Of a stretch of DNA of 40,675 nt, positions 3,325 to 38,058 are shown in pieces; within the stretch, counting starts at the first letter, position 1, and each line of letters begins with the position of its first letter. A program made the position numbers and the translations under genes. The notes beneath the pieces are model-generated. The model saw only the letters and a program-made list of their open reading frames with translations. It made no database searches and was not told where the DNA came from. The stretch spans positions 1-40,675 of the forward strand of contig JAJBVL010000105.1 of the NCBI GenBank assembly GCA_020859845.1, read 5' to 3'. This DNA comes from Bacteroidales bacterium. Its GTDB lineage: Bacteria > Bacteroidota > Bacteroidia > Bacteroidales > Muribaculaceae.

Positions 3325-5004
3325 ATGAAATCAATACTGAAAAATATAGCAGTAGGCACATTGCTGGTGGGCTCACTGGCATCCTGCGACGACTTCTTGA
3401 CCATTGAGCCAGAGGACAAGCTCGTGCTCGACACCTACTATACCAGCGCCACGATGCTCCGCGCCAACACCTTGACGCTCTACGCCTCCAAGACATGGAG
3501 CAACTTCCATATGAACTTCCAGTGGAAGATGGACATGATCAATGGCGACATGTGGTACACCTACGATGCCGAGGGACAATGGTTTTTTGGCTCCTACACG
3601 GCCATCAATGCCTATATCGATGAGGGCTGGAAAGGCCTTTACAATGTGATAGCCTTTGCCAACTCTATCATCAACGACATGCCAGGCAAGTGCTCAGGCG
3701 TGGCCCAGGAGGATATCGACAAGGCAGTGGCTGAGGCCCGCTGTGTACGCGCCCTTTGCTACTGGTGGATAGCCGAGGTGTGGCACGATGCTCCTATCGT
3801 CTACAACAACACCGAGAATATCTCCAACAGCGACCTCGACCTGCCACGTAACACCCAGAAGAGCATCTATCAGTTTGCTCTTGACGACCTCAACTATGCC
3901 GAGGAATACCTTCCAGAGACCGATGCCGACGCCTTCCGTTGCACCAAGCAGACGGCTCGCGCCTTCCGTGCCAAGCTGCTCGTGACGATGGCCTCGCATA
4001 GCGACTATGGCTACGACCGCGCCGCCCTTTACGCTCAAGCAGCTCAGGATTGTATGGCCGTGATGGATGCCAACGATTGGCTTACCAACAACGACTTCTC
4101 TACGCTCTTTGACGTAGACGCCAACAATGGTCCAGAGTCAATCTTTGCCATCCAGTGTGCCGTGCAAGGTTATTCTTATGGCAATGCCCACAATGTGGCT
4201 TGGAGCCGCTCGTCGGTTATCGCCGACCAGACGTGGGGTGCAGGCAAGGGCCCGACTATCGCTCTCCAGAAACTCTTTGACTCTACCGACAAGCGCCGTA
4301 AGTGGACCTATATGACCAATGGCGACTATTATCCTAATCTTGCCAAAGCCAGTGGTGGCTACACTTATTATTATGTGAATCGCGACGACGAGGGCAACAT
4401 CGTTGAGGATCGCAACGAGGTGAATGCCCATATCAAGAAGTATATCATTGGCAAGAGCGCCGACTGTGACGGCAACGTGGGTATCAACCAAGATGCAGCC
4501 AACAACATCTATCTGATGCGACTGGCCGACGTCTACCTGCTCTATACAGAGGCAATCATGGGCACGGCAAGCTCCACCAGCGACGCTATTGCCATACAGC
4601 GCTTCAACGCCGTGCGCGACCGTGCAGGCCTTCCTCAAGTGTCGACCGTCACCTATGAAGACCTCATGAAGGAGCGTCTGCGCGAGTTTGCTTTCGAGTC
4701 GCAGTCGTGGTTTGACACCCAGCGTCTGCGCTATCGCGAAGGCGACCAGGCAGCTCTCAACTGGATCAACACTGGCTACCACACAGGCTACAACCGCGCT
4801 TCGCAATACATCGCCAAGGACGGAATGGACCAAGCCGATGAAAACCGCGACGACAGCTATATCATCGTGCAAAGCAAAGCCGAGTATGCCATGTACGACC
4901 CCATCATCCTTACTGCTGATGCCTTTGTATGTCCTATCCCAGCTTCAGTCTCCACCTCATCACCAGCCTTGGCAGGTGATCCAGTAGACTTCTATGTCGA
5001 ATAA
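3325..5004 (+). CDS. SusD-like surface glycan-binding lipoprotein
   Basis: This 559-residue SusD/RagB-family lipoprotein forms the binding lid over the SusC barrel. I chose the ATG at 3325 rather than the in-frame ATG at 3301 because it gives a clean lipoprotein signal (MKSILKNIAVG..., lipobox LASC with Cys21). After the Cys comes DDFLTIEPEDK, the usual SusD start, and the region around residues 100-140 has the TPR-like helices with WW(I/L)AEVWHDAPIVY. The C-terminal half has RERLREFAFE-type motifs (KERLREFAFESQSWFDTQRL) seen throughout the family. It starts 30 bases after susC ends, so the two are almost certainly co-transcribed. Ligand: probably beta-mannan oligosaccharides, inferred from the neighbours. 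Confidence 0.95.
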   Translation: MKSILKNIAVGTLLVGSLASCDDFLTIEPEDKLVLDTYYTSATMLRANTLTLYASKTWSNFHMNFQWKMDMINGDMWYTYDAEGQWFFGSYTAINAYIDEGWKGLYNVIAFANSIINDMPGKCSGVAQEDIDKAVAEARCVRALCYWWIAEVWHDAPIVYNNTENISNSDLDLPRNTQKSIYQFALDDLNYAEEYLPETDADAFRCTKQTARAFRAKLLVTMASHSDYGYDRAALYAQAAQDCMAVMDANDWLTNNDFSTLFDVDANNGPESIFAIQCAVQGYSYGNAHNVAWSRSSVIADQTWGAGKGPTIALQKLFDSTDKRRKWTYMTNGDYYPNLAKASGGYTYYYVNRDDEGNIVEDRNEVNAHIKKYIIGKSADCDGNVGINQDAANNIYLMRLADVYLLYTEAIMGTASSTSDAIAIQRFNAVRDRAGLPQVSTVTYEDLMKERLREFAFESQSWFDTQRLRYREGDQAALNWINTGYHTGYNRASQYIAKDGMDQADENRDDSYIIVQSKAEYAMYDPIILTADAFVCPIPASVSTSSPALAGDPVDFYVE

Positions 5005-5035
5005 AACATCACTTATCCACAACCAACGACACGAC

Positions 5036-6364
5036 ATGAAAACATTTTTCAGATATATAGCCCTCACGGCACTTGCTACCCTTGGCGCCACAACCCTCGC
5101 CAGCTGTAGCGACGACACCGATGCCGACAAGGATCGCGGACAGCTGCCGGTGATTAAATACGTGCGCGATTGTCGCGCCTCCCTCTCCGACTCGTTGATA
5201 GTCAGCGCATCGCTGGGCTCTCACATCTGCTTCGTAGGCGACAACCTCGGCGATGTGCAGCAGGTGTGGTTCAACGACCAGAAGGCCAAACTCAACCCCA
5301 CAATGGTGACATCCCACACCATCATCTGCGATATCCCCTCGGTGATACCAAGTGAGGTGACCAACAACGTAAGGTTTGTGACCTCCACGGGACTGGAGGC
5401 CAACTACTACTTTGAGGTGGTAGTGCCCGGTCCGCGTATCGACGAGATGTCGCTGGAATATGCCAAGCCCGGCACTACGGTGACTATCTCTGGCACCTAC
5501 TTTGTCGACGACCCCAACGTGCCTCTGACCGTCACATTCACTGGCGGTGTAGAAGCTCAGGTGACGAGCGTCAGCCAGACAGCTATTAAGGTGGTAATCC
5601 CCGAGGGCGCACAGCCTGGACCTATCACTATCACCACTATCTATGGCACTACCATCTCCACACTGGAATATATGGACCCCCGCGGTATGCTCTTTGACTT
5701 TGACGGCCTGACGGGGCTCGGCAACCACGGCTGGCATGATGCCGCTATCGAGACCGACGACAATGCCATCTCGGGCAACTACGTGCGCCTTGGCTCTGCC
5801 GACGTGACGATGAGCGCCGATGGCGGATGGGATGATGGCCACTACGCCTTCGAATACTGGCCTGGCGACTGGAGCGAGCCTACGCAGTATCCAGCCGATG
5901 GTGTGCGCCTCTACGATATCGTCGACTTCTCCGACTGGAAAAACATGGGCCTTAAGTTTGAGCTCTGTGTGCCTTCGGCCAACGCTTGGCAGGCAGGAGC
6001 CATGCAGCTTATCTTTGCGGGCACCAATCTGGTGACCACCGGCTGGGGAGGCATCGACATCTATGGCAACGCCATTGGTGGCCCCAACAACGACTACTTC
6101 CAGGACGCCTCCAACCCTGGCTATCCACGCGGACTGTATCGTCCTTGGAGCGCCACATCGGCATTCCATACCAACGATGAGTGGATCACGGTGACTGTGC
6201 CTTTTAGCGAGTTTGTCTACGACATGTCGGGTGGCAATGCTACCCAAGGCCTTACTGCAGAGAGCTTTGCCAGCTTCGTGATCTTCGTGACTGGCGGAGG
6301 CGTGACTGGTGTAGAATGTCAGCCCGTCATAAAGATTGACAACATCCGCGCTGTAGCCCTTTAA
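5036..6364 (+). CDS. IPT/TIG-domain surface glycan-binding lipoprotein (SusE-position)
   Basis: A 442-residue lipoprotein in the position usually taken by a surface glycan-binding protein. The start at 5036 is chosen over the longer in-frame ATG at 4994, which would overlap susD, because it gives a proper lipobox (LASC, Cys24) followed by acidic residues typical of surface export (SDDTDADKD). Residues about 40-130 and 135-215 look like IPT/TIG immunoglobulin-like folds (GDNLGDVQQVWFNDQKA; KPGTTVTISGTYF). The last ~210 residues begin LFDFDGLTGLGNHGWHD and are rich in Trp and Gly, resembling a beta-sandwich carbohydrate-binding module. No catalytic motif is seen. The role in mannan capture is an inference from position and domain type. 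Confidence 0.85.
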   Translation: MKTFFRYIALTALATLGATTLASCSDDTDADKDRGQLPVIKYVRDCRASLSDSLIVSASLGSHICFVGDNLGDVQQVWFNDQKAKLNPTMVTSHTIICDIPSVIPSEVTNNVRFVTSTGLEANYYFEVVVPGPRIDEMSLEYAKPGTTVTISGTYFVDDPNVPLTVTFTGGVEAQVTSVSQTAIKVVIPEGAQPGPITITTIYGTTISTLEYMDPRGMLFDFDGLTGLGNHGWHDAAIETDDNAISGNYVRLGSADVTMSADGGWDDGHYAFEYWPGDWSEPTQYPADGVRLYDIVDFSDWKNMGLKFELCVPSANAWQAGAMQLIFAGTNLVTTGWGGIDIYGNAIGGPNNDYFQDASNPGYPRGLYRPWSATSAFHTNDEWITVTVPFSEFVYDMSGGNATQGLTAESFASFVIFVTGGGVTGVECQPVIKIDNIRAVAL

Positions 6365-6405
6365 TCCTTTCATCCTTATTAACCATATATTATCGCAAGA
6401 AGAAT

Positions 6406-8769
6406 ATGTTACGCAAACTCAATATAGCAGGATGGCTCATCATGGGCGCCGCGATGCTGGCCCCGCTCTCACTGAGCCTCAGCTCCTGCAGCGACGACAA
6501 CGACGACTACGACACCAACCAATATAAGGGTGGAGTGAGCCTCAATTCCTTTGGCCCGAGCCCTGTGGCTCGTGGCGGCGAACTACGCTTCCTTGGCAGC
6601 GGTATGAATCGCATCACTTCGGTGACCATCCCTGGCTGTGAGCCTATATCGCAGATTGAGGTGATCGATGAGGGTGAGATACGTGTCACCGTGCCTCAGA
6701 CCGCCGAACCAGGCTACCTCACGCTCTCTTATTCCGGTGGCACCATCACCACCAAGACTATGCTCACTTATACCGAGCCTATCAGCATCGATGGCTTCTC
6801 GCCAGCACGTATTAAGCCGGGCAACGAACTGACCATCTCGGGCGAATATCTCAACCTCATCAATGAAGTATGCTTTGCCTTTGAGACGGATAGCGTCAAC
6901 GTCTTTGCCGACGACTTTACAGCTCATTCGCGCAAGGAGATTAAGCTCATTGTGCCAGAAGAGGCAGTGAGTGGTATAATCATCATCAGCGATGCAGCTG
7001 CCGTGCCCAACACCCTCAAGAGCGAGGATGAACTGGAGGTCATATTGCCCTCTGTATCCGCTCCGCTTGATCTCACGGATGTAAAGGGTGGTACTGTGGT
7101 GACTATCGCTGGCGACGACCTTGACCTCGTGCGCCGCGTAGAGCTGCCATCAGGCGAAGAAGTCGACTTTGAATACGATGCCGACGCTTCCACCATCAGT
7201 TTCACGCTCCCCGACGATGTGACCGATGGCGCCATCGTAGCTATCCCTGCATCAGGTGTAAAGGTAGCCGTGGCCAACATTGGTGTAGTGGTGCCCACCG
7301 AGCTTGAGGCGCAGCCTGCCGAAGGCCTGCGAGCCGGCGATGCTCTGGTCATCAAGGGCGTCAACATCGACCAAGTGACTACCGTTCTGTTCCCCGGCAT
7401 GGAGGACGCTGTAGAGCCAACAGCCATTAGCGCTACCCAACTGACAGTGACTGTCCCTGCCGAGGCTCAGAGCGGCGACCTGGTGCTCAACCTGCGTAGC
7501 GGCAAGACAGTAAGCTTGGCCATCGCCACTGCCAAGCCTGAGGAGATAGCCTTCACGCCCGATGCTGTGGCTGCCAATGCTGAGTTTAAGATTACAGGTA
7601 AGAACCTCGACCTCGTCACCAGCATCACGTTTACGGGCGATGTAGAGGTGGCCGTGGAGAATCCTTCAGCCACTGAGATTACAGTGACTGCCCCCGCCAC
7701 AGCCCAGACTGGTAATCTCGTGCTTCACATGGCCAATGGCGAGAGCGTAGAGACACCTCAGCTCACAATCCTGCTGCCTGAATGTGCCTACGTGGAGAGC
7801 GTAGCCACCGAGGAGCCAATGGCTGGCGAACTGCTCGTGCTTAATATCGCCAATGCCGACAAGCTTACCGACGTGAAGGTCAATGGCACCAGCGTGCAGT
7901 ATATCAGCAACAACAACGTCCTATATGTAGCTCTCCCCTCTTCGTGTGGTGCAGGCACTGTAGTGACCCTCATCTCCAGCAATGGCGAGATATCCTACAC
8001 CTACGATGTCACTCCCGCCACTCATGTGGAGATTGTAGCCTACGATGAAGGACCAGTGGACATGGGCAACTGGGAGGGCAACTTCCGCATCTATAAGGAC
8101 AAACTTGACGGTGTGCCCGCAGGCGCTATCATGACCATCCACGTGGCTCCTTACGGCGACTATTCCCAGCTGCAGCTCAACGATGCCAACTGGTCGTCGC
8201 TGGCCTTCCTCAACTTCGGTCCTGACGACACAACGATAGAGGTAGAGCTGACAGCCGAGATCCTCGCAGCAGGCCGCACCGTGGAAGATGGCTGGAGCGA
8301 GACAGCGTTTGTGTTCAACGGCTGCAACTGCGTGGTCAACAAGGTGACCCTCGCCTACGAGCAAGACCTGGGCACGACGGTCTTTGAAGGTCCAGTGGAC
8401 CTCACATGGGACGACACGGGCCGCTTTGGTCTCGCCCTCAACTTCTTTGAAGGTCTGAAGGCAGGTGCTACCATCACCTTCTATATCACCCAAAACGACA
8501 ATTGGGGACAGATACAGATCAACAATGGCTGCTGGTCGACCCTCTACTTTGACGAGCTCGGCGGTGGATATCTCTCTACCGACGCTATCGCCGACAAGAG
8601 CGCTACGGAATACACCTTGACGCTCACCCAAAGTGTGCTCGACGATATCCTTAACAATCCTGGCGACTACTGGGGCCTCAACACAGCCTACCAGAATGGT
8701 GACACCCGTGTGGGTATGGTGATCCAGGGCTCAGATATGCGTGTCAACAAGATAGTAGTAAACAAGTAA
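6406..8769 (+). CDS. Multi-IPT/TIG surface lipoprotein with duplicated C-terminal modules
   Basis: A 787-residue lipoprotein (lipobox SLSSC, Cys28, followed by SDDNDDYD) with a long string of IPT/TIG-like repeats. Recurring signatures such as PG.ELTISGEYL, GGTVVTIAGDDLDLV, AGDALVIKGVNIDQV and ANAEFKITGKNLDLV recur about every 75-85 residues from ~45 to ~530. The C-terminus contains two similar modules (about 540-655 and 658-787). Both open with a GPVD motif, then have a Gly/Ala-containing strand (GVPAGAIMTIHV; GLKAGATITFYI) and a Q-L/I-Q-(L/I)-N-(D/N) motif followed by W (LQLNDANWSS; IQINNGCWST). The repeats probably make a stalk that holds twin carbohydrate-binding modules away from the cell. 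The gene sits 41 bases after the previous one, in the same operon. Function is inferred. Confidence 0.8.
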   Translation: MLRKLNIAGWLIMGAAMLAPLSLSLSSCSDDNDDYDTNQYKGGVSLNSFGPSPVARGGELRFLGSGMNRITSVTIPGCEPISQIEVIDEGEIRVTVPQTAEPGYLTLSYSGGTITTKTMLTYTEPISIDGFSPARIKPGNELTISGEYLNLINEVCFAFETDSVNVFADDFTAHSRKEIKLIVPEEAVSGIIIISDAAAVPNTLKSEDELEVILPSVSAPLDLTDVKGGTVVTIAGDDLDLVRRVELPSGEEVDFEYDADASTISFTLPDDVTDGAIVAIPASGVKVAVANIGVVVPTELEAQPAEGLRAGDALVIKGVNIDQVTTVLFPGMEDAVEPTAISATQLTVTVPAEAQSGDLVLNLRSGKTVSLAIATAKPEEIAFTPDAVAANAEFKITGKNLDLVTSITFTGDVEVAVENPSATEITVTAPATAQTGNLVLHMANGESVETPQLTILLPECAYVESVATEEPMAGELLVLNIANADKLTDVKVNGTSVQYISNNNVLYVALPSSCGAGTVVTLISSNGEISYTYDVTPATHVEIVAYDEGPVDMGNWEGNFRIYKDKLDGVPAGAIMTIHVAPYGDYSQLQLNDANWSSLAFLNFGPDDTTIEVELTAEILAAGRTVEDGWSETAFVFNGCNCVVNKVTLAYEQDLGTTVFEGPVDLTWDDTGRFGLALNFFEGLKAGATITFYITQNDNWGQIQINNGCWSTLYFDELGGGYLSTDAIADKSATEYTLTLTQSVLDDILNNPGDYWGLNTAYQNGDTRVGMVIQGSDMRVNKIVVNK

Positions 8770-8782
8770 ATCACTCATCACT

Positions 8783-10234
8783 ATGAAATATATCCTTCCA
8801 GCTCTCCTGATGGCAGCCGCTACGCTGACCTTTACGGCTTGCGACGACGATGAGAGCAAGATCAATCCTTCCAATGTGACAGGAAAAGTGTATAACGTGC
8901 AGTCGGCATCCATAGCTGAAGGCGCCTCTGTTGACCCCGCCAACACTACCTCGCTTGAGGTAGTGTATGACGGCGAGGTGGCGCTCAGCACCCTCGTGTC
9001 GCCCACGCTCAATGGGCAGGCAGTCACAGCCACCATGGGCGACGACCAGCGCACCCTCACTGTGGAGCTTGCTTTGGCCGCTGGCGTCAGCTACACATTT
9101 GAGATACCCCAGCGTGCCGTGGCTGGCATCAATTCAGGCGAATATGCCGAGCCATTCACCCTCTCCTTCTCTACGCCGACCAAGGAAATAGTGGTGCCGC
9201 CCACCTCCTTCCTCGACCTCTGTAATACCTCGGCAACGGCCGAAGCTAAGGCCGTATATGCTTTCCTCCAGGAACAAAATGGCAAGAAGATACTTTCAGG
9301 AGCCATGGCCAACGTCAACAACAACAACCGCATGGCCGACTGGATCTACAGCATTAGCGGCAAGTATCCAGCCATCACGGGCTACGACTTTATCTCCCAT
9401 CTCTACTCAGGAAGCAACTGGATAGATTATACGGACATCACCCCCGCCAAGACCCAATGGGAGGCCAATGGATTGGTATCTTACATGTGGCATTGGTTCG
9501 TGCCCACCGATGAAGACGCATGGCGCAATGCCGACTACGACCGCTATGGTTGCCGAGTGCCTGGCGACGATGTGACCAGCGCTACGGAGTTTGACATCCG
9601 CAACGCCGTAGAAGATGGTACATGGGAAAATGAATGTATCCTTGCCGACATTGATCAGATAGCCGGCTATCTAAAGCTCCTTCAGGATGCTGGTATCCCA
9701 GTGTTGTGGCGTCCGCTACATGAGGCTGCTGGCAGCTACAAGTGGAGTGGCGCTTGGTTCTGGTGGGGACGCTACGGCGATGAGTATACCACCAAGCTGT
9801 GGAAGCTGATGTATGACCGCCTCGTCAATTACCACGCTCTTAACAACCTTATCTGGGTGTGGACTGCTCAGTATGAGGAAGGCTATGAGAGCCAGATGGA
9901 GGCTTCTTATCCTGGCAATGAGTATGTCGACATCGTTGGCACCGACATATATGCTGATGAGGGCGATGAATCAGCTCAATATGCAGCCTATGCAGCGCTG
10001 ATGAGCATGACAGGCGGCAAACGTATGGTGACTATCAGCGAGACTGGCTACCTACAGTCGACCGAGGAGTGTCTGGCCGCTGGCGCCGGTTGGAGCTACT
10101 TCATGCTGTGGTATACCTACGACATCGCCTCCGACGCCACTCATGATAGCTTTGGCAACACTGCCGAGCATATCTCTGCTGTAATGAATGCCTCCACGAC
10201 GCTCAATCGCGAGGATATGCCATCTCTTAAATAG
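8783..10234 (+). CDS. GH26 beta-mannanase lipoprotein
   Basis: A 483-residue glycoside hydrolase family 26 enzyme, expected to hydrolyse beta-1,4-mannan. The signal peptide ends in a lipobox (FTAC, Cys20) with acidic residues after it, so it is probably surface-exposed. Residues about 30-130 form an immunoglobulin-like N-terminal domain. The catalytic domain begins near TSATAEAKAVYAFLQEQ. The acid/base Glu is E314 in WRPLHEAAG, followed by the family motif WFWWG. The nucleophile is E420 in VTISETGYL. Both glutamates are present, so the enzyme should be active. It starts 13 bases after the IPT protein. GH26 includes endo-mannanases and mannobiose-producing exo-enzymes; which type this is cannot be told by eye. 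Confidence 0.92.
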   Translation: MKYILPALLMAAATLTFTACDDDESKINPSNVTGKVYNVQSASIAEGASVDPANTTSLEVVYDGEVALSTLVSPTLNGQAVTATMGDDQRTLTVELALAAGVSYTFEIPQRAVAGINSGEYAEPFTLSFSTPTKEIVVPPTSFLDLCNTSATAEAKAVYAFLQEQNGKKILSGAMANVNNNNRMADWIYSISGKYPAITGYDFISHLYSGSNWIDYTDITPAKTQWEANGLVSYMWHWFVPTDEDAWRNADYDRYGCRVPGDDVTSATEFDIRNAVEDGTWENECILADIDQIAGYLKLLQDAGIPVLWRPLHEAAGSYKWSGAWFWWGRYGDEYTTKLWKLMYDRLVNYHALNNLIWVWTAQYEEGYESQMEASYPGNEYVDIVGTDIYADEGDESAQYAAYAALMSMTGGKRMVTISETGYLQSTEECLAAGAGWSYFMLWYTYDIASDATHDSFGNTAEHISAVMNASTTLNREDMPSLK

Positions 10235-33360: not shown

Positions 33361-34284
33361 ATACAATTCCGTTGAGAGATAGCGCTCGCCAGTATCGGGT
33401 AGGATGGCCACTATCCGCTTGCCCTTGTTTTCAGGCCTACGCGCCAGCTCCGTAGCTGCGGCTACGGCTGCGCCCGACGAGATGCCCACCAGAAGCCCCT
33501 CGGTGCGTGCCAACTTGCGGCTTGTAGCCATAGCATCGTCGCTCTTCACAGTCACTATCTCATCCACCACGTCGCGGTCAAAAATCTTAGGCTCGAAGCC
33601 AGCGCCAATGCCCTGTATCTTGTGGGGGCCCTTTTTGCCTCCGCTCAGCACCGGCGACTCTGCCGGCTCTACAGCCACCACCTTTATCTCGGGGCGCAGC
33701 GCCTTGAGATAGCGGCCTGTGCCACTCACTGAGCCACCAGTACCCACTGCGCTTACAAAGATATCGACGATGCCGTCGGTGTCGGCCCATATCTCCGGGC
33801 CAGTGGTGTCGGCGTGGGCTTGAGGATTGGCGGGATTTTCAAACTGCTGGAGTATTATCGCTCCCGGAGTGGCATCGCGTAGGCGCTCAGCCTCGCGGAT
33901 GGCTCCGCTCATGGCCTCTGAGCCAGGGGTGAGCACTATCTCGGCGCCGAGGGCGGCGAGCAGGCGTCGGCGCTCTATGCTCATCGTCTCGGGCATCGTC
34001 AGGATGAGTTTGTAGCCACGAGCAGCCGCCACAAGGGCAAGACCAACGCCGGTGTTGCCGCTTGTTGGTTCTATGATGGTGCCACCAGGCTTCAGCAGCC
34101 CGCGCTTCTCGGCATCGTCGATCATGGCCAAGGCCACGCGATCTTTGACGCTACCGCCGGGATTGAAGTATTCCAGCTTTGCCACGATGGTGGCGGGGAG
34201 CTCTTCTGAGCGCTCATAGTTGGAGAGCTCGAGTAGGGGAGTGCGGCCTATTAGTTCTGTGAGGCCTTTAGCAATACGTGCCAT
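33352..34284 (-). CDS. cysK: Cysteine synthase A (O-acetylserine sulfhydrylase)
   Basis: A 310-residue PLP enzyme joining O-acetylserine and sulfide to make cysteine. The PLP lysine is Lys47 in NPGGSVKDR. The substrate loop is [11 protein letters not shown], the phosphate-binding loop is [16 protein letters not shown], and [15 protein letters not shown] is near the C-terminus. Length fits CysK rather than cystathionine beta-synthase. It has its own promoter. The last residues overlap a REP-like repeat. Confidence 0.94.
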
Positions 34285-34330
34285 AATAGTAAGTTGGGGG
34301 AATATTGAGTAAATAAATCCGTTGACACCG

Positions 34331-34338
34331 CAAAACTA
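34331..34338 (-). promoter_or_regulatory. -7 box of cysK
   Basis: CAAAACTA is TAGTTTTG on the minus strand, matching TAnnTTTG, 47 bases before the cysK start. A TTGC about 20 bases further upstream is a weak -33 element. Confidence 0.6.
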
Positions 34339-34462
34339 CATCCTTCTCTCCACTTGTGCAATACCCACTATCAAAAACAGTAAACTATTCTATTTCATAC
34401 TATACAGAAAGCTCAAAATAGAAAATCATTCTAAATCTATCAACAATAATAGGCATCCGCCA

Positions 34463-34555
34463 TCCTCCTCTGCGGCAGCTCATGTAGTGCGGTTGCCTCA
34501 ACCGCCCATGTTTCGCGGCTGCCTCAGCCGCCCGAGGCGCCGAAGCCCCACTACA
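34463..34555. repeat. GC-rich region of tandem hairpins upstream of tRNA-Lys
   Basis: GCGGTTG-CCT-CAACCGC (34489-34505) and GCGGCTG-CCT-CAGCCGC (34515-34531) are two perfect 7-bp hairpins with the same three-base loop. They are enclosed by TGTAGTG (34483-34489) and CACTACA (34549-34555). The left edge CCTCTGCGGCAGCT resembles the arm of the inverted repeat at 15510. The remaining gap 34285-34620 otherwise holds only the cysK and tRNA promoters. Confidence 0.75.
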
Positions 34556-34572
34556 AAAAAACCGTCTAAAAG

Positions 34573-34604
34573 TTTGCACATATAGAATAAAAGCTGTAAT
34601 TTTG
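34573..34604 (+). promoter_or_regulatory. Promoter of tRNA-Lys
   Basis: TTTG (34573-34576), a 20-base spacer, then TAATTTTG (34597-34604) is a full match to the Bacteroidetes -33/-7 promoter. The tRNA begins 16 bases downstream. Confidence 0.8.
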
Positions 34605-34619
34605 CAGCGCAATTCGCAG

Positions 34620-34692
34620 GATTCGCTAGCTCAGCTGGTAGAGCACAACACTTTTAATGTTGGGGTCCTGGGTTCGAGCCCCAGGCGGATCA
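34620..34692 (+). tRNA. tRNA-Lys (anticodon TTT)
   Basis: A 73-base cloverleaf. The acceptor stem GATTCGC pairs with GCGGATC (one G-T). The D arm is GCTCAGCTGGTAGAGC. The anticodon stem is CAACA/TGTTG with loop CTTTTAA, so anticodon TTT at 34653-34655. The T arm is CTGGG-TTCGAGC-CCCAG. The discriminator base is A at 34692. CCA is not encoded. Its 3' end is the left attachment site of the downstream island. Confidence 0.97.
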
Positions 34693-34693
34693 C
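34681..34693 (+). repeat. Left attachment site (attL) in the tRNA-Lys 3' end
   Basis: CCAGGCGGATCAC, covering the T-arm end, acceptor strand and discriminator base, recurs exactly at 37329-37341. This is the usual site for tyrosine-recombinase integration. Confidence 0.75.
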
Positions 34694-34716
34694 AACCGGC
34701 TTAAAATCAATGAAAT

Positions 34717-34753
34717 GGTATGCAATCTAATGAAATGTTTGCATGCCTTTTTT
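34717..34753 (+). terminator. Terminator for tRNA-Lys supplied by the island
   Basis: GGTATGCAA (34717-34725) pairs with TTGCATGCC (34739-34747; one G-T) around a 13-base loop, followed by six T residues. Confidence 0.75.
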
Positions 34754-34840
34754 ATTTGGTTTTCAGCCATTTATGCATCGACCCCGCTGGAATGAAATCT
34801 TTGTCTTTACGTTAAAAAGTTGACTCATTAACGAACATAA

Positions 34841-35150
34841 ATGAGAACAACAGATACAAAAGAGAAGCGCCACTTCGATGAGGAGTTGAAGGTCAAAAAT
34901 AGCAGGAAGCTATCTCCGAGGCGAAGGCTCCTATCGTGAACTGGAGAAAAATTATGGCGTTGCCAAGTCAAAAATTCAAGCATGGGTTCGTAACTTTGCA
35001 AAGAAGATCAACGCAACACCATCCGAGAACATGAGAAAGGATACGACCCAGAAACAGCAGCCAGTTTGTGGCACGGCCAGTGAGCCATGCGACAAAGACA
35101 GAAGCAATATAACTAAAATTGCTTACCTTTGCAGAAAAATTGCATGCTGA
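34841..35150 (+). pseudogene. Frameshifted IS3-type transposase OrfA remnant
   Basis: ATG 34841 opens MRTTDTKEKRHFDEELKVK and then stops early. In another frame a helix-turn-helix continues as GSYRELEKNYGVAKSKIQAWV and on to TGA at 35148. The (K)RHFDEELK...YRELEKNYGV...IQAWV pattern is that of the small OrfA subunit of IS3-like transposases. A frameshift around 34900-34910 breaks it, and no OrfB (DDE integrase) follows. No terminal inverted repeats were found by eye. Confidence 0.7.
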
Positions 35151-35241
35151 CGGGAATTCAGGAAACTACACACACAAAACCCACTCTTCCTTTCTAAGAA
35201 CTCATATAACTCTACTAAATAAATAGGGTATAGTAGCGCCC

Positions 35242-35325
35242 TAATTGCAGTTTTTTGTAAAAATCAGCATTGTAATCGCAGAAATTTGTACCTATGAGTA
35301 CCTATAATCGCAATTTTTGTATGCC
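35242..35325 (+). repeat. 31/32-bp-period direct-repeat array in front of the AAA/RloB operon (array C)
   Basis: TAATTGCAGTTTTTTGTA at 35242, TAATCGCAGAAATTTGTA at 35273 and TAATCGCAATTTTTGTA at 35305. The consensus is TAATYGCA followed by an A/T tract and TTTGTA. The core ATCGCA.TTT is shared with array D (39453). It ends about 60 bases before the operon promoter. Confidence 0.7.
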
Positions 35326-35386
35326 ATGCCATGAATGGCAAAGTGAAAATATTGATATGGATAGGGCATAATCCAAATTAAAGTGC

Positions 35387-35394
35387 TATATTTG
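35387..35394 (+). promoter_or_regulatory. -7 box of the AAA/RloB operon
   Basis: TATATTTG matches TAnnTTTG and lies 29 bases before the ATG at 35423. There is no clear -33 TTTG. Confidence 0.6.
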
Positions 35395-35422
35395 CAAAAT
35401 AATTCCAAATACTACATCGAAA

Positions 35423-36577
35423 ATGATATTGGAAATCGCTCTCACGAATTTTTTCTCGCTAAATGAGAAAGTGACTCTGGATTTGCAGGCTGCAAATATT
35501 CAGACAAAGGAAGCACGCGCCCTTTCAGACAACACCTTTACTGTCGGAAATGAGCGTCTGTTGAAAACCGTGGCCATATATGGTGCCAACGCATCAGGCA
35601 AAAGCAACATAATAAAGGCGATCAAGGCCGCTGTTGATATGGTGTTGCAGTCGCATAACTTCAATGAAGGAGATACATTCGATTTCAAACCTTTCAAGTT
35701 TGGAAATACCGGTAAACCGAGTGAGTTTTATATCCGTTTTATAATTGACGGGATAGAACACGAGTATTCCTTTTCCTGTACCCGTGATGAAATACTGACC
35801 GAAAGCCTCTATTACTATCCGAAAGGGCGTAAAGCATTGATATTCTCCCGTGATGAGCGTAAGGAGGGAGGAAAGAAAGAAAAGTATGAATTTACCTCCG
35901 TTATCCGTCGTCCACTTGATGTAGCCAACAATACCTCGCGTAAAACTCTGTTCATCTCTCGTGCAAGCCAGATGGATCGTGACAAGGCAAAGGAAGTGTA
36001 CCGATGGTTTAACGAGCAACTTGTATTCAGTTACCGTGGCAAGACCACTGTCGCCATAGACCGTTTCCTCGGCGACAACAAAGATGCCGTTTTGCGTGTG
36101 CTGAAAGCCGCGGACAGCGACATTGTGGAATTTTCATTCAAGGACGGAGAACTGACAACATTCCATCGACGCAATCCCGAATTGCCGTTTGACTTCAACA
36201 CGGAGGAGTCCGAAGGCACGAAGATTCTTTTCAAGATAATGCTTACGGTGATGGATGTTGTACGGAACAACAAGGTGATGTTTCTCGATGAAGTTGAAAC
36301 GAGCCTGCATACCCGGTTGGTGGAGTATCTCATAAACCTGTTCCATACAAGCAAGTCCGCACAGTTGGTATTCACCACGCATAACACCCACTTGCTTGAT
36401 ATGACACGTTTCCGTAAGGATCAGATATTCTTCGTCAACAAGCGTGAGGATGGCTCGTCAGACCTATATTCTCTCTACGATTACAAGGACTTCCGCGAGA
36501 AAATGGACTTGGAGAAAGCATACCTTCAGGGGCGTTTTGATGCTGTGCCATACATCAATGAATTTGAAAACATCTGA
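35423..36577 (+). CDS. AAA-family (AAA_15/AAA_21) ATPase, RloA/AbiLi-like
   Basis: A 384-residue ABC/SMC-type ATPase. The N-terminal strand MILEIALTNFFSLNEKVTLDLQA is typical of the OLD/AAA_21 group. Walker A is GANASGKS (54-61). Walker B is VMFLDEVETSLH with Asp289 and Glu290, then the H-loop-like TTHNTHLLD. No nuclease or Toprim domain is fused to it. It is paired with an RloB gene two bases downstream. RloA/RloB pairs were first noted beside restriction systems, and the AbiL abortive-infection system has the same make-up, so I infer a phage-defence role. The setting in a tRNA island agrees with that. Confidence 0.88.
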   Translation: MILEIALTNFFSLNEKVTLDLQAANIQTKEARALSDNTFTVGNERLLKTVAIYGANASGKSNIIKAIKAAVDMVLQSHNFNEGDTFDFKPFKFGNTGKPSEFYIRFIIDGIEHEYSFSCTRDEILTESLYYYPKGRKALIFSRDERKEGGKKEKYEFTSVIRRPLDVANNTSRKTLFISRASQMDRDKAKEVYRWFNEQLVFSYRGKTTVAIDRFLGDNKDAVLRVLKAADSDIVEFSFKDGELTTFHRRNPELPFDFNTEESEGTKILFKIMLTVMDVVRNNKVMFLDEVETSLHTRLVEYLINLFHTSKSAQLVFTTHNTHLLDMTRFRKDQIFFVNKREDGSSDLYSLYDYKDFREKMDLEKAYLQGRFDAVPYINEFENI

Positions 36578-36579
36578 CT

Positions 36580-37131
36580 ATGGCACGGAAAATGAAACAG
36601 CCGAAAGGCAAGAAAATGAAGCCGACATTTTTCGTGTTCTGCGAAGGCAAGACCGAAGCCGCATATGTGGACTTGTTGCGACGCAGTTTCCGTGTGCCTA
36701 TGGAGATAATCGCCCGTGTCAGCGACTCAAACATTTCTCAACCATACATCGACCGAAGCAAACGGGAGAAATTCACTACCATTGATGACAAGACCTTCCT
36801 GATGTTCGATCTTGACGTACCGGGTATGATTGAACGCCTCCGAAAGATTAAAGATGTGGTTTTATTGCTTTCCAACCCTTGTGTTGAGTATTGGTTCCTG
36901 CTTCATTATAAAGATATATGCTGTGAGCTGTCCTCAGCTGAATGTGTCGCAAGATTGAAAAAACAAGATGATGATTATACCAAAGGAACATTTTCCAATG
37001 AGATGAAAAAGGTGCTGGTCGAGAGTATTGAGATTGCCACAAAAAGAGCGGTGGCAAAGGAGGCATATTCAAATCCGTCGTCAACCGTCCACTTGCTCAC
37101 AAATGAGATACTGAAAAATATGAGGGAGTAA
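36580..37131 (+). CDS. RloB-like protein (AbiLii-like partner of the AAA ATPase)
   Basis: A 183-residue protein of the RloB family, which has a Toprim-like core. Visible features are FFVFCEGKTEAAYVDLLRR with Glu22, the acidic FLMFDLDVPG with Asp77 and Asp79, and the family hallmark SNPCVEYWFLLHY (98-110). These acidic residues would bind metal for a nuclease-like activity; this is inferred from the fold. The start is two bases after the ATPase stop, so the two are co-translated and probably form a complex. The N-terminus is Lys-rich (about 13 residues). Length is somewhat short of typical RloB but the core motifs are all there. Confidence 0.88.
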   Translation: MARKMKQPKGKKMKPTFFVFCEGKTEAAYVDLLRRSFRVPMEIIARVSDSNISQPYIDRSKREKFTTIDDKTFLMFDLDVPGMIERLRKIKDVVLLLSNPCVEYWFLLHYKDICCELSSAECVARLKKQDDDYTKGTFSNEMKKVLVESIEIATKRAVAKEAYSNPSSTVHLLTNEILKNMRE

Positions 37132-37204
37132 TGATTTCGGAAAAACGACGAAATAAATAGGCTTAATTAATACTCTAAATTGCCGAAAATCAGAGGATTA
37201 TTTG

Positions 37205-37212
37205 TATCTTTG
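37205..37212 (+). promoter_or_regulatory. Orphan promoter at the right end of the island
   Basis: TATCTTTG (exact TAnnTTTG) with ATTG about 22 bases upstream. Downstream there are only ~170 bases up to the terminator at 37385 and no convincing ORF. It may be the promoter of a lost integrase or of a small RNA. Apart from this, the gap 37132-37386 contains attR and the terminator. Confidence 0.45.
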
Positions 37213-37328
37213 CAGTGTAATCGAAGAAGAACATTGAAATATCGGGGTGTACAAAAAGGGAGCAGCCTTGATTATTCAGAGAGTTAACTCATTGATAAAC
37301 ACGATACAAGATGCCTGATAGATATATT

Positions 37329-37341
37329 CCAGGCGGATCAC
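37329..37341 (+). repeat. Right attachment site (attR)
   Basis: Exact 13-base copy of the tRNA-Lys 3' end (CCAGGCGGATCAC), with unrelated sequence on both sides. Confidence 0.75.
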
Positions 37342-37346
37342 TAATG

Positions 37347-37385
37347 AAAAAGCCAATTCGCAAGGAAGCAGCGAGTTGGCTTTTT
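37347..37385. terminator. Strong hairpin terminator beyond attR (probable original tRNA-Lys terminator)
   Basis: AAAAAGCCAATTCGC (37347-37361) pairs with GCGAGTTGGCTTTTT (37371-37385) with one G-T pair and a 9-base loop. The T and A tracts let it act in both directions, so it can also end the convergent gene at 37387. Confidence 0.85.
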
Positions 37386-37386
37386 G

Positions 37387-38058
37387 TTATCTTAGGAAGG
37401 CGATGGCTCGGTTGATGAAGTCGAGAAAGGGCTTAGTAGAAGCAAGGTCGGAGGTGAGGCGTTTCTCCAGATTAGGTGATAGAAAATAGTCATGGCTCAC
37501 GTCCTTTGTAAGGCAAAAGTTTTTTAGTCGGAAGTATTGACTGTAGGGCTTTTCAGTGGGGAATCCTTTGGCTGGACGTTTTAATGCCTCTGAAAAATCG
37601 AGTTGCCAGCCTTCGGCTTGCTGGAGGGCCTTCATAAATTCTTTGCCTTCGTCAAGCTCTATGTCTTCGCGCAAAAGCTTCAACACTGCGGGCTCGCAAT
37701 AGTAGTTGCCGGTAGCTAAGACGCACCCATGAGGGAAGCCGTGGTCATCAGCTCCCACTTGGAAATAGTAGCCCGAAAAGCCCGACTTTTTGCCTTGAGG
37801 AGCAAGAAAAGCTCCGAAATGTTGCTTGTAGGGCGTCTTGTCGTTGGAGAAACGCGTGTCGCGATATATTCTGTAAGTGCAATCTTTTACCTGCAGGGGC
37901 CCGATTGAGGGGTCAAACTCATTTACATGGCCGATCATTCTCTCTACTAAGCCTTCAAAGAGTGCTCTTGCATGAAGATACTCATCCTTGTGGTCGTTAA
38001 ACCATGGGCGATTGTTGTTAAACTGCAGGTGCTGCAGATATGCTATAATTTCTTTCAT
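37387..38058 (-). CDS. DUF2461 family protein
   Basis: A 223-residue cytoplasmic protein of the DUF2461 (TIGR02453) family. The signature is near the N-terminus (LQFNNNRPWFNDHKDEYLHA), with YRIYRDTRFSNDKTPYK in the middle and GYYFQVGADDHGFPHGC after it. The last is a conserved strand pair that may form the active or binding face. Function is unknown. It is complete and of usual length. It is transcribed towards the island and ends at the shared terminator. Confidence 0.92.
   Translation of the reverse strand: MKEIIAYLQHLQFNNNRPWFNDHKDEYLHARALFEGLVERMIGHVNEFDPSIGPLQVKDCTYRIYRDTRFSNDKTPYKQHFGAFLAPQGKKSGFSGYYFQVGADDHGFPHGCVLATGNYYCEPAVLKLLREDIELDEGKEFMKALQQAEGWQLDFSEALKRPAKGFPTEKPYSQYFRLKNFCLTKDVSHDYFLSPNLEKRLTSDLASTKPFLDFINRAIAFLR

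Follow-up and report, generated by a model that had tools for sequence, protein, structure and literature searches.

How does an intact pair of defence-type genes come to lie between a tRNA gene and an exact copy of that gene's 3′ end, with no integrase beside it, and can the segment so bounded still move? The question is raised by positions 34,620 to 37,341 of a 40,675-nucleotide stretch of DNA from a Bacteroidales bacterium of the family Muribaculaceae; this whole stretch, hereafter "the window", is the complete contig C69 of a 2.92-Mb assembly (112 contigs, 97.9% complete). In this report, we found that the segment carries an AAA ATPase gene, an RloB gene and no integrase, that it closes on a right-end module with the attachment site attR, and that it is homologous to larger islands. 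Because an 18-kb tRNA-Lys island in the closed genome G120 carries the same pair just inside this right end, we propose, with a probability of about 0.76, that 34694-37341 is an integrase-less derivative of the tRNA-Lys integrative elements of Muribaculaceae and their neighbours, resembling a cis-mobilizable element (CIME). Relatives were sampled at one genome per species, and many are metagenome assemblies, several of whose contigs stop at or near the repeats described below; genomes, loci and contigs are cited by our G, L and C numbers.

The right end and its probable parent elements

The features on which the argument turns are as follows.

34620..34693, + strand: tRNA-Lys(UUU) gene (ARAGORN, Rfam RF00005), the proposed integration site, its 3′ end being attL
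34681..34693, + strand: attL, the 13-base repeat CCAGGCGGATCAC, last bases of tRNA-Lys(UUU)
35423..36577, + strand: AAA ATPase gene, AbiLi type (AAA_21), Walker A at residue 54, intact open reading frame (ORF)
36580..37131, + strand: RloB gene, AbiLii type, product TOPRIM-like with invariant E22, D77 and D79, intact ORF
37132..37341, + strand: conserved right-end module of the element family (model R1 matches 37198-37341)
37205..37214, + strand: -7-like promoter element TATCTTTGCA facing outward, conserved within the module
37329..37341, + strand: attR, the 13-base repeat CCAGGCGGATCAC, exact copy of attL
37347..37385, + strand: terminator-like inverted repeat with a T-run, behind attR

As an earlier note on this DNA had claimed, 34681-34693 and 37329-37341 are identical, and chance is a poor explanation, for the 13-mer never appeared when the 5 kb downstream of the tRNA were put through 2000 dinucleotide shuffles. 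Its two exact copies are the only ones both in the window and in the whole assembly (two forward, none reverse), where the reversed-pattern control had no match; among the other 33 congeners, 21 have a single copy and 12 none. Where contigs were compared, two congeners proved identical to database entries, one for Paramuribaculum intestinale (L091 equal to L126) and one for a Muribaculaceae isolate (L092 equal to L128), so that the host can be placed as a Paramuribaculum-like member of the family.

In aligned ends of the family, a conserved -7-like promoter element is followed first by a block GAAGAACATTGAAAT, then by one around GGTGTGCAAAAAGGG and finally by the att site. We take TATCTTTGCA at 37205 to be a Bacteroidales-type -7 element. 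The earlier note had listed an orphan promoter here; the promoter element stands, but it is part of a conserved module and thus no orphan. The stretch 37132-37345 was found in 36 of 297 family genomes (the window's own included; the weakest matches are short). A sequence-only model, R1, was trained on 20 ends, the window among them (L224, L228, L242, L243 and L270 were excluded from its alignment A3), and has matches in 60 of 397 family genomes, own included, and in 12 of 30 genera. E-values are rough, having come from a shortened calibration; 24 matches lie below 1e-16, and the weaker ones are less certain.

Some 80 module places were listed and fetched in part. From 75 model matches, 62 ends were mapped, leaving out 5 duplicate places under other locus ids and 8 partial matches (L309 and L340 among them); nine ends were moved by 1-6 bases so that they fall on the final position of the model. 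Forty-nine stop exactly on GGCGGATCAC or CCGGGGTCAC, the ends of tRNA-Lys UUU and tRNA-Lys CUU respectively, 7 do so with one mismatch, and 6 are more divergent, L321 at least being a probable false match. The model covers the terminal tRNA-like bases, and weak matches therefore lean towards them. A strand control that is independent of scoring and dependent on locus choice counted the 10-mers in 628,200 bp: 57 lie on the module strand and 0 on the opposite one. No match to the module at E<=1e-5 occurred in phage or plasmid records. Rfam at gathering thresholds returned the tRNA and no other structured RNA, and RNAalifold gave no convincing fold for 20 right ends (7 pairs, -4.46 kcal/mol).

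These results bear on the simplest alternative, that the 13-mer recurs by coincidence or marks a decayed copy of the tRNA, and that the two genes form an ordinary chromosomal operon. The repeat is just 13 bases long, no empty-site allele is on record at our sampling, and the left end has no relatives among the fetched loci. Yet 37329-37341 are the final 13 bases of a module that is present in other species, at the same relative place; this conservation contradicts the alternative, the strand bias and the shuffles speak against it, and we regard it as very improbable.

Further, in relatives the element end is, to judge from aligned boundaries, coincident with the tRNA-Lys 3′ end. Identity between L123 and L127 falls from 97% over the last 60 bp inside att to 55% over the first 60 bp outside; for L311 and L265, the corresponding identities are 0.99 and 0.32. 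At least 80% identity inside att is seen in 162 pairs of the 62 boundaries, a few of which also have a common flank (L311/L312, 1.00); across all boundary pairs, identity outside has a median of 0.55. The window's own blastn match to G154 (82% over 207 bp) crosses the 13-mer and stops one base beyond it, as expected from the earlier note's view that the junction coincides with the repeats; that view holds on the right, while the left has no homologue for comparison.

The earlier note's terminator at 37347 is present, presumably as the tRNA's own. Terminator-like hairpins lie downstream of 83 of 86 att or tRNA boundaries and in 87 of 1000 random window 120-mers; with a hairpin behind nearly every boundary, a hairpin alone is no proof of an empty site. 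In no congener does the window's right flank adjoin tRNA-Lys. The right-flank gene, DUF2461, has 30-47% identity to its matches in 29 congeners, none placed as in the window (in G028, it is on the opposite side of the tRNA-Lys), and the gene after it has a full-length relative in G010 only (44%), likewise elsewhere.

The presumed parents are larger. In G120, tRNA-Lys(CUU) at 555066-555139 is followed by the 18-kb island, up to an att at 573186-573195. The island's integrase is interrupted by an IS21-like insertion; several recombinases and a PcfJ-like gene follow (the IS21-like and PcfJ-like labels were assigned by eye), with the AAA gene (91%) and the RloB gene (80%) at 571167-572854, just inside its right end. 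In L308, a 10.9-kb att-bounded element with an integrase and relaxase-like and Fic-like proteins (these two named by eye) adjoins a compact AAA_14 segment. The five integrases located behind tRNA-Lys or att form two groups, L097/L163/L308 (51-65%) and L107/L257 (62%). Nineteen pair loci are close relatives (RloB >=64%) with 1 kb or more of sequence past RloB; a same-strand right end lies behind the pair in 8 of them, two of these being partial matches, and in 11 there is none. Of 80 RloB loci, 40 were run against R1 and 43 were scanned for tRNA, with tRNA-Lys in 0 of the 43. On our proposal, parent elements would insert into tRNA-Lys 3′ ends and encode tyrosine recombinases along with other mobility functions, their defence-type genes lying just inside the right end that closes on the tRNA 3′ copy.

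Several observations on the family stand apart from this argument. The islands at L261 and L344 (G087, G120) have several consecutive Xer-like tyrosine recombinases. A second AbiL-type AAA/RloB pair, about 25% identical and with a 309-327 aa partner, occurs in L310, L311, L312, L316 and L265; it lies at element right ends in four genomes, twice in G120, and the right ends of L310, L311, L312 and L265 are at least 99% identical inside att. In L253 (G154, 4329-10203), the AAA gene is retained, RloB is down to about 20 residues beside the module, and a Fic-domain gene and other ORFs lie between them.

The left end and the possible mobility of compact segments

The part of the segment ahead of the pair contains these features.

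34717..34747, + strand: terminator-like hairpin 3′ of the tRNA
34841..35147, + strand: frameshifted helix-turn-helix (HTH) remnant, possibly a transposase OrfA; weak
35248..35326, + strand: relic promoter/start region, which in related elements precedes a Fic-domain gene (Fic domain found in L253)
35387..35396, + strand: -7-like element TATATTTGCA of the pair's likely promoter

Two observations weigh against our proposal. First, the window's homology to related elements spans 35248-37341, and 34694-35247 has no relative among the fetched loci, so that the 13-mer alone defines the left junction. Second, the window's right junction is less sharp than those above: compared with L127 and L253, the window has an identity of 0.82-0.87 at 60-120 bp inside att, 0.62-0.68 in the last 60 bp and 0.62 outside.

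The decayed transposase of the earlier note survives as a frameshifted stretch; its identity as a transposase is weak (HTH_28 at E=0.003, below the curated cut-off, for the longer piece, and nothing for the shorter). The repeat array that was said to lie between tRNA and pair was not found: Tandem Repeats Finder, run on 34000-38000, gave only 34481-34533, upstream of the tRNA, and apart from the 13-mer the repeat search found only two-copy families of 12-31 nt. As a candidate array, 35248-35326 was rejected in favour of a relic promoter/start region. The upstream repeat itself is a 26-bp GC-rich unit in two copies, and the stretch from 34500 to about 34556 has 48 further matches across many contigs of the same genome, a dispersed intergenic repeat.

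Once overlapping ORFs are set aside, the AAA and RloB genes are the only ones between the att sites, and there are 0 integrase matches, which agrees with the earlier note's att-bounded segment without an integrase. That note had also proposed a search for integrases elsewhere in the genome. Eight PF00589 matches were found, and two integrases on contig C35 fit the profile of the tRNA-Lys-linked integrases (E 3e-68 and 1e-64). As cognate enzymes these candidates were rejected, the best identity to the five tRNA-Lys-linked integrases compared being 37%. No tRNA lay near the own-genome integrases in 10 loci scanned, and the att motif, with one mismatch allowed, gave one match in 12 loci scanned, in L114. 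The present genome thus probably does not supply an integrase for the segment, as far as such similarity, in an assembly of 112 contigs that is 97.9% complete, can tell. We would expect the segment to move only with an integrase supplied by another source, or when carried along by an incoming element. Because its left end is unrecognised and no close integrase was found in its genome, the window copy is probably immobile at present. Of the earlier note's two suggestions, a lost integrase is borne out by larger relatives with recombinases, the same pair and the same end; movement in trans is not, for the window.

Compact att-to-att segments do exist in other species. With "closed" meaning tRNA-Lys, a module end or an exact att on both sides (in L308, L314, L326 and L331, one side is closed only by an att without tRNA or accepted module), 14 closed segments are shorter than 6.5 kb, window included, and none has an integrase match. 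AbiL, AbiD, Fic or AAA_14-type genes are carried by 8 of the 14, or by 10 counting SLFN_AlbA_2. Known or candidate defence families were found by scanning in the window (AbiL), L262 (AbiD/Abi_2), L327 (Fic), L326 (AAA_14/DUF4143 with a HEPN_Swt1 protein) and L308 (AAA_14/DUF4143), and by homology in L254 (same pair), L263 (81.6% to L262) and L314 (91.7% to L326); both L303 segments carry SLFN_AlbA_2 genes (one scanned; weak PADLOC matches). The others are L268 (HTH fragment), L270 and L331 (no gene >=90 aa) and L329 (5.8 kb, a mixed block).

These segments raise the possibility, which we hold tentatively, that compact cassettes are mobile units with two ends, stacked at tRNA-Lys by resident or incoming integrases; the window would then be a single, partly decayed cassette, and defence arrays would grow and reshuffle. 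The lack of integrases in all 14 is in keeping with this. In L127 and L254, the pair is by itself in a stretch of 2.1 kb with an att site at either end. The L122 cassette opens on an att-like site, one base different, and has the left end seen in L127. Ahead of this left att, the cassettes of the two assemblies are 0.55-0.72 identical over 240 bp (0.60 over the nearest 60 bp); over the 60 bp that begin at the att, identity is 0.93, and here their blastn match starts. L123 and L127 have the right boundary at att in common, and the AAA_14 gene changes sides, preceding the pair in L122 and following it in L127 (88%). This common left end and swapped order are the best evidence for two real ends of compact segments. 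Two tandem SLFN_AlbA_2 segments in L303 point the same way, but may be a local duplication, since their left 300 bp are 98% identical. Nor was a near-identical compact segment with both ends intact found in two contexts: L122 lacks a right end behind the pair, and L314 and L326 agree at the right boundary only. L127 has an RloB ORF broken by a stop and a left att that closes only a weak module match (E 2.9e-4), and the window's left end is unrecognised. Separately, in L303 (G202:C2) and L131 three right-end modules follow one another at intervals of about 2 kb.

The other sub-reading, to which we give not quite even odds, is that a full element in tRNA-Lys lost its left end, to about 35248, through an insertion sequence or recombination, so that a selected defence pair and the right end remain, compact segments elsewhere being likewise relics. 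The window's homology begins at 35248 and extends to attR, with the weak transposase-like remnant at the break; homologous compact segments differ in their left ends and agree in their right ends; and the G120 integrase is itself split by an IS21-like element. This account is at odds with the left boundary at att common to L122 and L127, and with an AAA_14 gene about 0.2-0.5 kb behind att or a module end in L254, L314, L318 and L326, for which it would need repeated deletions with similar ends.

Both sub-readings are compatible with the CIME-like derivation that we prefer, in which the window's integrase part would have been lost and the AbiL-type pair, right-end module and attR left behind tRNA-Lys. 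A wider view, that Muribaculaceae and neighbouring gut Bacteroidales have a cassette system in which trans-acting integrases capture, stack and reshuffle short integrase-less defence modules behind tRNA-Lys, each closed by the right-end sequence and a tRNA-Lys 3′ end, then a terminator, with the window as a one-cassette example, we consider unlikely. In any case, a sequence tag of about 145 bp ending in the tRNA-Lys 3′ end marks mobile-element edges in a gut bacterial family. Several genes just inside this edge are known or candidate defence genes, so the tag allows one to test how small defence modules originate and become stacked, and to search for further ones by their place.

The AAA/RloB pair

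Both ORFs named by the earlier note are intact, and the likeness to AbiL that it noted is upheld: the best PADLOC models are AbiLi for the AAA protein and AbiLii for RloB, and the two genes are adjacent. By its sequence, then, the pair is of the AbiL type. Among 5027 PADLOC models at E<=1e-3, AbiLii is the sole match to RloB, and the AriB model gave none; AriB was also missing among the 50 entries listed when RloB's TOPRIM-like reading was examined. Alignment A4 comprises 44 of the 80 RloB loci and the window; L127 was omitted because its RloB ORF has a stop. Ahead of the AAA gene, 35368-35420 are conserved in relatives.

Other collections yielded little. RloB had no match in phage records at E<=1e-5, and the AAA protein matched 176 plasmid records, all below 60% identity. 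Sequence searches of the Protein Data Bank gave a single match at E=1, a ribosomal protein, for RloB and nothing at 0.01 for the AAA protein; in NCBIfam, RloB had no family and the AAA matches fell far below the family cut-offs.

The AAA protein is 91% identical in Bacteroides muris, which belongs to another family, and in G120, whereas CysK of G120 is only 66.7% identical to the window's. With CysK as a single yardstick gene, this contrast suggests horizontal spread of the AAA gene.

Comparison with known systems

In the open-access literature, as far as its accessible text goes, we found no description of such tRNA-Lys defence segments; an earlier one may exist. For the pair, the closest known systems are AbiL and the AAA/RloB pairs discussed in PMC10440598: two adjacent genes, AAA_21 and RloB, as in AbiL. 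The window pair differs as a divergent Bacteroidales branch known here from its sequence.

PARIS (AriA/AriB) joins an AAA sensor to a TOPRIM nuclease, a design that the window pair may share, and according to PMC12409363 its effector AriB cuts tRNA-Lys(UUU); the window's second protein is instead RloB/AbiLii, with no AriB model match. By analogy with PARIS and AbiL, and given what their protein families suggest, the ATPase may hold or license the TOPRIM-like RloB and free it upon phage sensing; freed RloB might then cut nucleic acid, perhaps tRNA, and so stop the infected cell. The tRNA cut by AriB is also the segment's site (PMC12409363), which so far is a coincidence.

Integrons are arrays of gene cassettes, and an integron-like defence array with the tRNA end as cassette site is what the wider view above would amount to. 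Short att-separated segments whose order differs between relatives recall them. The sites here, however, are tRNA-Lys 3′ ends, no IntI integrase came to light (no search aimed at it was made), and the segments have a conserved right end; as to a folding site like attC, the weak fold given above is what the right ends offered (no attC model was used).

The nearest parallel is the CIME, described with the accretion of integrative and conjugative or integrative and mobilizable elements (ICE/IME) in PMC5704250. Like a CIME, the segment keeps attL and attR, here the 13-mers and the conserved end module, has no integration or transfer genes, and occupies a tRNA 3′ end that integrative elements use; relatives show tandem arrangements. 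Its right end is homologous to those of integrative elements, while its own left end is unrecognised and has no homologue. Any mobilisation of it is putative, and it differs further in being very short, in carrying mostly defence-type cargo and in its host family, Muribaculaceae.

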